From Campylobacteraceae bacterium (GTDB lineage: Bacteria > Campylobacterota > Campylobacteria > Campylobacterales > Campylobacteraceae): a stretch of 61,429 nucleotides of DNA. Below are positions 3,169 to 61,429 of the stretch, piece by piece. Under the pieces are notes generated by a model, which searched no databases, was not told the origin of the DNA, and saw only the letters and a program-made list of their open reading frames with translations. The stretch's first letter is position 1; the number at the start of each line of letters is the position of its first letter. Made by a program: the position numbers and the translations under genes. Location of the stretch: assembly GCA_012519705.1 (NCBI GenBank), contig JAAYPR010000004.1, positions 1 to 61,429 on the forward strand. The letters are read 5' to 3'.

Positions 3169-3206
3169 TAGGGGATGTTGCTTTTATAGTAGCACCCCCC
3201 TTTTTA
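3169..3206 (+). terminator. Probable intrinsic terminator after petABC
   Basis: A G-rich arm at 3171-3174 can pair with the C-run at 3195-3200 around a TGCT/AGCA inner match, and TTTTT follows. The stem is imperfect, so the call is moderate. Confidence 0.45.
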
Positions 3207-3276: not shown

Positions 3277-3496
3277 GTCGTAATTGCGAACGTTAGTGAA
3301 GCAATCCATAAAATAAATCATAAAGAATTTATTTGATTTCTACTTGGTGAAATTTTAGCTTTAAATTTTTACAGAAAAAAGCTATTAAATTTAACTTAAA
3401 TTTTTATCTATAAATTTATAAGGAAAAACCTTGAATTTAAGTTCAAATTTCTCCAAATGGATTGCCACGATTTACTTCGTAAATTTCGCAATGACG
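3277..3496 (+). repeat. Composite hairpin repeat, family 1, copy A1
   Basis: A forward terminal hairpin at 3277-3308 (ATTGCGA arm to GCAATCCA) and an inverted one at 3458-3496 (TGGATTGCCACG to CGCAATGACGA) flank an AT-rich spacer of about 150 bp. The right hairpin has an inner stem ATTTAC/GTAAAT around TTC. The spacer matches the other family 1 copies in order of its short motifs (AAATAAATC, AATTTAT, TTTCTACTT). It lies in the 782-bp gap between petC and the convergent mnmG. I see no gene in that gap. Confidence 0.75.
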
Positions 3497-3579: not shown

Positions 3580-3830
3580 GTCGTCATTGCGAGTTTGTGA
3601 AACAAACGAAGCAATCCAACAAATAAAATCTTAAAAAATTAGCCAAATTTCCACTTAAGAAAATTCTATCCATAATTTTATAAAAGATAAAATCTTAACT
3701 TCAGTTCAGAATTTCTTTAAATGGATTTTACTTCGCTCAGATTGCCACGTATTCACTCGCAACTAAAGACTGCCAAGACGCTTCGCTGCAGAGGCCGCGC
3801 CGGACTTCGTCCGTCTCGCAATAACGAATG
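3580..3830 (+). repeat. Composite hairpin repeat, family 1, copy A2
   Basis: The left hairpin at 3580-3618 has inner stem GTTTGT/ACAAAC around GAA and ends GCAATCCA. The spacer begins ACAAATAAAATC as in copy B3. The right end (about 3723-3830) is longer than usual and carries nested hairpins, including CGGAC/GTCCG around TTC. It ends TCTCGCAATAACGA. This copy sits head to tail with copy A1. Confidence 0.7.
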
Positions 3831-53058: not shown

Positions 53059-53470
53059 TTTAGACGCTTTAGTAAAAGAGTGTGGCGTTAGCCTTTATGA
53101 CACTGAGATAGCAAATGAAAACGGTAGGACAATTTATAGAGTTTATATCATAAAAAGTGGCGGTGTGAGCCTTGATGACTGTGAAAGAGTTAGTAAGCTA
53201 CTCTCTCCTATCTTTGATGTTGAACCGCCAATCGCTGGGCAGTATATGCTGGAAGTTAGTAGTCCAGGGCTTGAGCGAAAACTTACAAAACCAGAGCATT
53301 TTATAAATAGTATCGGCGAAAAAGCAAAGGTTACTACAGTAGCTAACGATAAATTTCAAGGTGAGATCGTTGGTTTTGTGGGTGATACACTTACCATAAA
53401 AGACACAGACACTCTGTTTGAAATCAAATTTAGTGATATTAAAAAAGCTAGAACTTATATAGAGTGGTAA
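53051..53470 (+). CDS. rimP: Ribosome maturation factor RimP
   Basis: Aids 30S assembly. The 139 residues have LVKECGVSLYDTEIANENG at the start, the SLDDCERVSKLLSPIFD motif, and YMLEVSSPGLERKLTKPEHF, which is diagnostic of RimP. It is the last gene of the operon, and its stop codon overlaps a terminator. Confidence 0.94.
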   Translation: MTNLDALVKECGVSLYDTEIANENGRTIYRVYIIKSGGVSLDDCERVSKLLSPIFDVEPPIAGQYMLEVSSPGLERKLTKPEHFINSIGEKAKVTTVANDKFQGEIVGFVGDTLTIKDTDTLFEIKFSDIKKARTYIEW

Positions 53471-53555: not shown

Positions 53556-53692
53556 CGTCATTGTGAGACGGACGTAGTCCGGCGTGGCAATCTAGATAAT
53601 GAATTCAAGTGGATTTTACAACCAAATTTGCTAAACAAAACTCTATAATTTCAAGAGCTAGATTACCACGTCGCTTCGCTCCTCGTAATGAC
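53556..53692 (+). repeat. Composite hairpin repeat, family 2, copy B1
   Basis: The left hairpin (53556-53595) has ATTGTGAG, inner stem CGGAC/GTCCG around GTA, then GTGGCAATCTAG. The spacer includes ACCAAATTTGCTAAA and AATTTCAAGAG. The right end is CTAGATTACCACG to CTCGTAATGAC (53658-53692). The ends are CTAG rather than CCA, which sets it apart from family 1. It is in the 761-bp gap between rimP and nrfH, which has no gene. Confidence 0.7.
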
Positions 53693-53740
53693 AGCTGGAG
53701 AGTAAATTTATAACCAAATTTACTAAAAACCACACTCTAC

Positions 53741-53780
53741 CGTCATTGCGAGACGGACGTAGTCCGGCGTGGCAATCTAG
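53741..53780 (+). repeat. Single terminal hairpin of family 2, copy B2
   Basis: GTCATTGCGAG, then inner stem CGGAC/GTCCG around GTA, then GTGGCAATCTAG, nearly the same as the left end of copy B1. No matching right end follows. It may be a solo remnant. Confidence 0.65.
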
Positions 53781-53858: not shown

Positions 53859-54079
53859 TCGTCATTGCGAGGAACGAAGTGACGAAGCAATCCAACAAAT
53901 AAAATCATAAAGAATTTATAAGACTTTCATTTAAGAAAACTCTTATCTATATTTTAAGAAACAAAAACCTTAAATTTAACCAAGCTTTTATCCAAGTGGA
54001 TTGCCACGATTTTCCGCTTCGCTTCAAAACAAGAGAATCGCTCGGCGTTAGCCGATGTTTCTTTAGATCTCGTAATGAC
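53859..54079 (+). repeat. Composite hairpin repeat, family 1, copy B3
   Basis: The left hairpin (53859-53894) reads TCATTGCGAGGAACGAAGTGACGAAGCAATCCA in two parts around an imperfect inner stem. The spacer starts ACAAATAAAATCATAAAG and carries AATTTATAAG, AACCTTAAATTTAACCAAG and TTTTATCCAAGTGG as in copy D. The right end (53997-54079) holds an extra inner insertion before CTCGTAATGACC. Confidence 0.75.
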
Positions 54080-54159
54080 CGGTGGGAGAGTTATAAAATT
54101 TCTCTACCAACCTATCTTTATATTTACTAACCATTAAGTTATATTTCTTTTATAAATAA

Positions 54160-56443: not shown

Positions 56444-56472
56444 AAGAGGCTCAAATTTGAGCCTCTTTTTTA
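56444..56472 (+). terminator. Intrinsic terminator after nrfA
   Basis: AAGAGGCTCAAATTTGAGCCTCTT is a perfect palindrome followed by TTTTT. It gives a 10-bp stem with a small loop. Confidence 0.85.
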
Positions 56473-56562: not shown

Positions 56563-56738
56563 AGTCATTGCGAGCTTTTCGTAGAAAATCGCGGCAATCT
56601 AGGCTTTGAATTTTAAAACATGTTAGAACCAAATTTAAAAGAATAAGATTTAAAAAACTTAAAAACCAAATTTGCTAAAATTTACTACAGAATTTCAAGA
56701 ACTAGATTACCACGTCGCTACGCTCCTCGTAATGACGC
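56563..56738 (+). repeat. Composite hairpin repeat, family 2, copy C1
   Basis: The left hairpin (56563-56602) has CATTGCGAGC, inner stem TTTTC/GAAAA around GTA, and CGGCAATCTAG. The spacer carries ACCAAATTTGCTAAAATTTAC and AATTTCAAGAAC, as in copy B1. The right end is CTAGATTACCACG to CTCGTAATGACG (56702-56738). It is in the 705-bp gap between nrfA and ribD, which has no gene. Confidence 0.7.
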
Positions 56739-56809: not shown

Positions 56810-57010
56810 CGTCATTGCGAGCTTGCGATAGCAAGCGTGGCAATCCATTTGGATAAAGGTTTTGTTAAATTGAGATGTTTTTGTTAAATTCAATAGTTTC
56901 CTTTCTTTTAAATTTAAAGCTAAAATTTATTCAAGTAGAAAACTTATAAATTTATAAAACTTTTATTTGATGGATTACTTCGTTTGTTGCACAAACTCTG
57001 GGTGACGACT
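56810..57010 (-). repeat. Composite hairpin repeat, family 1, copy C2, reversed
   Basis: The hairpin at 56810-56848 has inner stem GCTTGC/GCAAGC around GATA. Unlike other family 1 copies, its spacer is in reverse order: TTTGGATAAAGG comes first and AAAACTTATAAATTTATAA and TTTTATTTGATGG come last, which is the reverse complement of copy D. The distal hairpin (about 56970-57010) is worn, with GTTTGT/ACAAAC still visible. Confidence 0.7.
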
Positions 57011-61233: not shown

Positions 61234-61264
61234 AAATTTGAGCCAGAAATGGCTCAAATTTTTG
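61234..61264 (+). terminator. Intrinsic terminator after DASS copy 2
   Basis: AAATTTGAGCC and GGCTCAAATTT form a perfect 11-bp stem with a 6-base loop, followed by TTG and T-rich DNA. Confidence 0.8.
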
Positions 61265-61275
61265 TTTCTTCTCTT

Positions 61276-61429
61276 GTTTTGTCATTGCGAGATTTACGAA
61301 GTAAATCGTGGCAATCCATCAAATAAAAGCTTGATAAATTTATAAGTTTCTACTTCGTAGAAATTTTATCTCTAAATTTAACAACAAAAATATCTTAAAT
61401 TTAACTAAGCCTTTATCCAAATGGATTGC
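61276..61429 (+). repeat. Composite hairpin repeat, family 1, copy D, cut by the window edge
   Basis: The left hairpin has CATTGCGA, inner stem GATTTAC/GTAAATC around GAA, and GTGGCAATCCA. The spacer contains TCAAATAAAAGC, AATTTATAAGTTTCTACTT, and ends TTTATCCAAATGGATTGC at the last base. The right hairpin is not included. It is the clearest full-length reference for the spacer. Confidence 0.75.

Follow-up and report, generated by a model that had tools for sequence, protein, structure and literature searches.

Mobile-looking CGTC-tagged REP hairpins that combine a constant outer frame with exchangeable inner stems in a Campylobacteraceae genome

The closest described relatives of the repeats reported here are the CGTC-tagged REPs, a superfamily described by Di Nocera, De Gregorio and Rocco in 2013 (PMC3733652), which carries an unpaired CGTC, TGTC or CCTC end tag and includes dRS3 of Neisseria and RPE-4 and RPE-6 of Rickettsia conorii. 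The published families have a stem of 8-9 bp and a loop of 4-5 nt, other loops being noted for some of them, and gave a transposase-negative result; that paper makes no mention of Campylobacter. Another group, the GTAG REPs and REPINs, is accompanied by a RAYT (TnpA_REP) that is flanked by REPs in the genome, and recognition of the single strand through the tag and a bulge has been established for it (PMC8266576). Loops of the GNA or GNNA type with a closing G-C pair have been reported to give extraordinarily stable, nuclease-resistant DNA mini-hairpins, and d(GCGNAGC) mini-hairpins of this type have been studied in vitro as a physical motif (PMC4686876).

In this study, we describe a repeat family found in a window of 61,429 nt (the whole of contig JAAYPR010000004.1, assembly GCA_012519705.1) and followed through the 1.72 Mb genome (99.2% complete) to which it belongs. 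The hairpins are confirmed as real and constitute a scattered family of short, mobile-looking palindromes, CGTC-tagged REPs in which the outer frame is fixed and the inner stem can be interchanged. Read on the CGTC strand, the unit is CGTC - ATTGC - GA - inner hairpin - GAA/GTG (or GCG) - GCAAT - CCA/CTA. It forms a two-storey hairpin composed of the unpaired tag, a fixed outer stem of 5 pairs, a fixed asymmetric 2x3 internal loop that sets GA on its 5' side against GAA, GTG or GCG on its 3' side, and an inner stem of about 2-9 pairs, as in the copy at 61283-61316, CATTGC-GA-GATTTAC(GAA)GTAAATC-GTG-GCAATC. These features were characterised in a set of 154 copies with at most one mismatch per end, drawn from 46 stretches around copies, which leaves out about 25 exact copies on later contigs. 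In this set the 3' side of the internal loop is GTG in 83 copies, GAA in 57 and GCG in 6. A C directly precedes ATTGC, followed further upstream by T (about 99%), G (96%) and C (80%), and the edge of the tag is sharp, with 0.37 bits at the base just outside, equally for outer and internal copies. The A-T, T-A and T-A pairs of the outer stem are nearly invariant, and the short unpaired 3' end after GCAAT is CCA or CTA in most copies.

The family is of the CGTC-REP kind, as judged by its tag, the start of its stem, its tail, the presence of heterodimers and the lack of a transposase, which bears out the comparison with REP elements made in a preliminary description of the window; its two-storey stem lies outside the published sizes. 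The repeats described here share with those of PMC3733652 the CGTC or TGTC end tag, the A-T stem start and an unpaired end of the CCA type; both form HH dimers and heterodimers, have stem variants in one and the same family, and lie in intergenic, gene-downstream positions with no associated transposase. The published stem and loop differ from the arrangement here of 5 bp, 2x3 loop and variable stem with a loop of 3-4 nt; since other loops are noted for some published families, this is a difference of size within the kind and no ground for exclusion. GTAG REPs and REPINs are alike in being tagged hairpins that are short and imperfect, keep a conserved irregularity in the stem, form inverted dimers and reach high copy number, but their tag is GTAG instead of CGTC and they have a RAYT. 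Integron attC sites are recognised as a folded single strand with conserved outer boxes and unpaired bases and a freely variable inner part. The likeness to attC may be one of working principle (folded strand, fixed outer parts, variable inner part), whereas the sequence is other and attC sites lie in cassette arrays, not in intergenic inverted dimers.

Table 1. Repeat units and neighbouring features in the window
Feature	Coordinates	Strand	Details
REP copy	3279..3306	+	short inner AC(GTTA)GT, tail GAA; HH partner of 3460
REP copy	3460..3496	-	inner AATTTAC(GAA)GTAAATC, tail GTG
REP copy	3582..3616	+	inner GTTTGT(GAA)ACAAAC, tail GAA
Composite partner element	3724..3829	-	several GAA-loop hairpins
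REP copy	53556..53592	+	inner GACGGAC(GTA)GTCCGGC, one A-G mismatch, tail GTG; HH with 53661
REP copy	53661..53693	-	compensated outer stem ATTAC/GTAAT, inner G-GA-GC(GAA)GC-GA-C, tail GTG
REP copy	53741..53777	+	inner GACGGAC(GTA)GTCCGGC, tail GTG
REP copy	53860..53892	+	inner G-GA-AC(GAA)GT-GA-C, tail GAA; HH with interrupted copy 53999-54080
Partner REP	53999..54080	-	inner hairpin replaced by a long stretch that contains TCGGCGTTAGCCGA
Intrinsic terminator after upstream cytochrome c552 gene	56444..56467	+	precedes REP array
REP copy	56563..56599	+	inner GCTTTTC(GTA)GAAAATC, tail GCG; HH with 56705
REP copy	56705..56737	-	compensated outer stem ATTAC/GTAAT, inner G-GA-GC(GTA)GC-GA-C, tail GTG
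REP copy	56810..56845	+	inner GCTTGC(GATA)GCAAGC, tail GTG; HH with degenerate partner near 56972-57010
Intrinsic terminator, upstream symporter gene	61234..61261	+	precedes REP at 61280
REP copy	61280..61316	+	tag TGTC, inner GATTTAC(GAA)GTAAATC, tail GTG; 5' unit of inverted (HH) pair
HH spacer of 61280 pair	61317..61420	+	class CATCAAATAAAAGCTTGATAAATTTATAAG...; partner end of CATTTGGATAAAGG class
Partner REP start (GGATTGC) of 61280 copy	61421..61429	-	cut by contig end

The preliminary description had proposed at least eight loci with an outer ATTGC/GCAAT pair. Eight exact ATTGC..GCAAT occurrences are present in the window against 3.3 expected, and eight or more were reached in 3 of 100 shuffles, so that the window taken alone is only suggestive. 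Genome-wide, the pattern ATTGCGAG-N(6-25)-GCAATC gave 125 exact matches, split 67 to 58 between the two strands, compared with 0 for the reversed control, and a covariance model built on 34 copies, the kind of search that had been proposed as a check, recovered at least 134 copies. The copies already named were all found in place, at 61283, 56813, 53559, 53744, 3585 and 3460, as were the inner stems said to vary by copy (GATTTAC/GTAAATC, GCTTGC/GCAAGC, CGGAC/GTCCG, GTTTGT/ACAAAC and ATTTAC/GTAAAT). The list of loops (GAA, GTA, GATA and TTC) needs one amendment: TTC stems from the copy at 3460, which lies on the minus strand and reads GAA on its own strand. The window holds 11 clear copies and 4 that are degenerate or cut. 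Four features had been missed, namely the CGTC tag, the unpaired GA / GAA|GTG|GCG, the inverted pairing and the start of a partner in the last 10 bases of the window (61420-61429); there the assembly broke at the repeat, the contig stopping inside the partner REP of the copy at 61280.

The sequence of the inner hairpin is free, further forms being GCTTGC(GTTA)GCAAGC, GGCGAT(GAA)ATCGCC and G-GA-GC(GAA)GC-GA-C, the last of which contributes a GA/GA mismatch pair. Its loop is restricted in type. The commonest are C(GAA)G (47), C(GTA)G (19), C(AAA)G (17), C(GTTA)G (17) and T(GAA)A (14), and GNA or GNNA closes 100 of 140 inner hairpins, against 0.9% of all shuffles of the inner sequences. Among triloops, C(GNA)G accounts for 67 of 108 in the copies and for 10 of 156 triloop hairpins (stem of at least 6) elsewhere in the same DNA, some of which 10 may be undetected relics. 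That these loops are of the stable-DNA type is the chief argument favouring a DNA over an RNA role. GC(GNA)GC, the sequence of the d(GCGNAGC) mini-hairpins (PMC4686876), is present exactly in the minimal cross-phylum form of the REP, although the units here are a repeat family and not an isolated physical motif. Generic folding energies favour the CGTC strand with RNA and with DNA parameters alike, and therefore cannot separate the two.

Covariation of the stems was strong. An alignment of 34 distinct, equally long copies has 97.1% of its cells paired against 82.5% after shuffling, and 7 of 12 pairs have changes on both sides. Lack of covariation, named beforehand as the result that would speak against a structured family, was not observed: the covariation score was 0.373 compared with 0.133 for shuffled copies, none of 500 shuffles being as high, and it fell to 0.135 or less with partners slid. 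In the 97 copies with an inner part of at least 15 nt, the inner six positions are Watson-Crick in 93.3% of cells, and redealing the 3' arms among these copies reduced pairing to 53.6% (maximum 60.5%). Restriction to unique arm pairs (n=35) gave 86.7% against 47.2% redealt, which is the fairer figure because shared descent among copies inflates such counts. The outer stem covaries as well (ATTGC/GCAAT to ATTAC/GTAAT), and in the GA-module type a change from G-C to A-T is found at the outer pair in 5 copies and at the inner pair in 8. Copies of the form GACGGAC/GTCCGGC retain a stem mismatch. The earlier statement that compensating change means that structure has been kept thus holds in that structure, not sequence, is conserved in the inner stem; "means" is too strong, as quasi-palindrome template switching, which is free of selection, can give matched changes in two arms. 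The tag and the unpaired loop are not so explained.

None of the 154 copies lies in an ORF of at least 120 aa. The units are mostly clustered, with only 15 solitary copies, and the 98 neighbour pairs within 250 bp comprise 41 HH (inverted, CGTC outside, with a spacer of about 55-160 bp), 36 HT and 21 TT. HT and TT pairs are thus common here; in the published CGTC families (PMC3733652) HH predominates, TT is rare and HT negligible. Of the 41 HH pairs, 32 combine the GAA and GTG loop classes, where 21.1 would be expected (p about 1e-4), and partners generally have dissimilar inner stems too. An inner arm common to both partners was found in 0 HH pairs against 1.9 expected, which is not significant. 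The flanks sort into recurring classes, and flanks that are 85-100% alike over 30 nt surround unrelated inner hairpins in 15 of 17 pairs of class 2a, 42 of 65 of class 2b and 29 of 57 of class 1. No clean empty site was found among 18 flank matches without a called copy in the stretches around copies; when read, these 18 proved to be units that are degenerate, have been rearranged or are cut by the end of a contig, one of them a flank fragment at such an end. Since near-identical flanks carry unrelated tips and an empty site is not seen, the tip appears to change while the element itself stays in place, whether through exchange, conversion or templated repair. The nearest sequenced relatives of this genome are about 72% identical in coding DNA.

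The composite element at 3724-3829 (-) is about 105 nt long and has several GAA-loop hairpins (CTGCAGCGAAGCGTCTTGGCAG..., AGTTGCGAG..CGTGGCAATC) fused to a REP half; with its kin at C12:44153 and C22:25147 it has at least three related copies. The long insert of the REP at 53999-54080 has a hairpin of its own, TCGGCGTTAGCCGA, and the string GCGATTCTCTTGTTTTGAAGCG, with a relative at C21:4259.

Within the genus, covariance-model matches were obtained in 6 of 14 genomes and none in the other 8, and among 150 relatives the number of exact-pattern copies ranges from 0 to 685. The maximum, in a genome of 1.9 Mb from the same family (G022), amounts to about one copy per 2.8 kb, and this genome has no Y1_Tnp or IS110 match. 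In a scan of 257 Gb, the tagged frame was present in at least 114 stretches of named genomes; as about 150 exact matches are expected there by chance on our own estimate, 30 genomes were checked one by one. All 30 are multi-copy, with between 13 and 508 copies each; the control pattern was absent from 28 of them and counted 1 and 2 in the other two. Judged by record titles they represent about 15 phylum-level groups, with the reservation that many are MAGs and that single taxon assignments may be wrong: Pseudomonadota, Campylobacterota, Bacteroidota, Chloroflexota, Bacillota, Planctomycetota, Armatimonadota, Fibrobacterota, Omnitrophota, Atribacterota, Riflebacteria, Electryoneota, Berkelbacteria, Deltaproteobacteria and ANGP1. 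The cross-phylum copies have the 3' tail GAA, GCG or GTG in 101 of 108 cases and a GNA or GNNA loop in 75 of 97, neither feature being part of the search pattern. The mention of similar repeats in unrelated bacteria in the preliminary description is therefore borne out. New relative to the published account, which covers 5 phyla, are the multi-copy occurrence of the exact frame in about 15 phylum-level groups, the GNA/GNNA inner loops and the unrelated inner hairpins within near-identical flanks. A plasmid DNA similarity search with one copy returned a single weak Fischerella match, and a literature search by sequence string returned primers and unrelated papers only.

A candidate enzyme was sought among known transposases. 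Y1 transposases (PF01797; RAYT/IS200) gave no match in this genome, control genomes such as E. coli being positive, and a resident RAYT/IS200 mobiliser was thus rejected. Y1_Tnp was also absent from all 21 Campylobacterota genomes of the relatives' set with at least 10 copies, this one included; Y1 is rare in the family generally (6 of 91), so its lack in 21 genomes is not significant by itself and amounts to absence, not proven exclusion. Of the 30 cross-phylum genomes bearing the repeat, 10 gave no Y1 match, and the complete chromosome of Sphingomonas daechungensis has 30 copies and no Y1 match. The existence of high-copy genomes without Y1 indicates that a resident Y1 enzyme is unnecessary for maintenance of the REPs, and a lost, visiting or different enzyme is possible. 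IS110 (PF02371) is absent from this genome and showed no association with the repeats, and several IS110 matches in the genus are a scrap of 25 residues.

Other explanations of the family were considered against these data. Chance palindromes of AT-rich DNA would fit the moderate excess over shuffles in the window, and can be dismissed as vanishingly improbable given the genome-wide count against the reversed pattern and the covariation. Neutral parasitic repeats, whose pairing is upheld by mutation and not selection because intrastrand template switching rewrites one arm to match its partner, could yield both the matched two-sided changes and the replacement of whole inner parts inside near-identical flanks, and the copies are intergenic and patchy across species. 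Such a process leaves the fixed GA / GAA|GTG loop, the CGTC tag and the GNA/GNNA loops unexplained and does not account for an identical frame in many phyla, and the mismatched subtype GACGGAC/GTCCGGC has spread uncorrected; we regard it as rather unlikely.

The structured-RNA alternative raised in the preliminary description, here taken as hairpins at transcript 3' ends that stabilise mRNA or attenuate or terminate transcription, was not supported. In its favour are the gene-downstream position of the arrays (22 between convergent genes, 25 between genes in the same direction and 1 between divergent genes), G-T pairs in some stems and one published proposal for REPs. Each of the four arrays in the window comes after the upstream gene's intrinsic terminator, which was predicted at 53458, 56444 and 61234 and is visible by eye near 3171-3205; both orientations occur, often as HH pairs, the loops bear the DNA-stability signature, and eight sister species are wholly devoid of the repeats. 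Rfam covariance models at gathering score detected only tRNAs in the window and nothing at the repeats, and known RNA families were rejected on this result. A role as RNA is accordingly unlikely. Still less probable, in our estimation, are immobile chromosome-level DNA sites that bind gyrase or nucleoid proteins, relieve supercoils between convergent genes or prime replication on a single strand: the enrichment between convergent genes and the published functions of E. coli REPs agree with them, and presence or absence within one genus and a range of 0 to 685 copies among related genomes fit a housekeeping role poorly.

The reading that we favour, with a probability of about 0.6, is that the repeats are CGTC-tagged REPs whose CGTC strand, when single-stranded, folds as DNA and is acted on in trans by a putative non-Y1 enzyme, the inner stem serving as a clip. 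The data show the architecture with its tag and loop type, the covariation, the dimers, the position after genes, the absence of a detectable Y1 transposase and the multi-copy occurrence across phyla; single-stranded action, the trans-acting enzyme and current mobility we infer. Where DNA becomes single-stranded, for example on the lagging-strand template, the CGTC strand would fold into a very stable hairpin; the putative enzyme, which would be no Y1 transposase of this genome, would recognise the tag, the outer stem and the internal loop, and would cut and then move or exchange the unit. The inner stem would be a mere clip, so that any self-complementary sequence with a stable DNA loop could serve. 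Counting against this mechanism are the common HT pairs, unlike the published CGTC families, the stem mismatch kept in some copies and the want of a clean empty site.

The agent that spreads CGTC REPs was left open in 2013 and is now narrowed. Three elements can be named as the part that is recognised, namely the tag, the outer stem and the internal loop; the sequence of the inner part is dispensable, and the substrate is probably the CGTC strand in DNA form. With the exact frame recurring in about 15 phylum-level groups, the idea of a shared factor becomes testable, and clean substrates for pull-down are at hand. It is conceivable, though doubtful, that one ancient single-stranded DNA hairpin system extends across most bacterial phyla, in which a putative widespread non-Y1 enzyme reads CGTC-ATTGC-GA...GAA/GTG-GCAAT and swaps the inner hairpin like a cassette; related units would then keep their flanks and exchange their tips.

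A possible strand skew was noted in the fragmented Lachnospiraceae MAG that carries locus L150 (G174), with 81 forward and 46 reverse copies. The frame also occurs, often as HH dimers, on at least 120 stretches of contigs from the IMG/VR viral collection (L201-L280), which may include the host flanks of proviruses.
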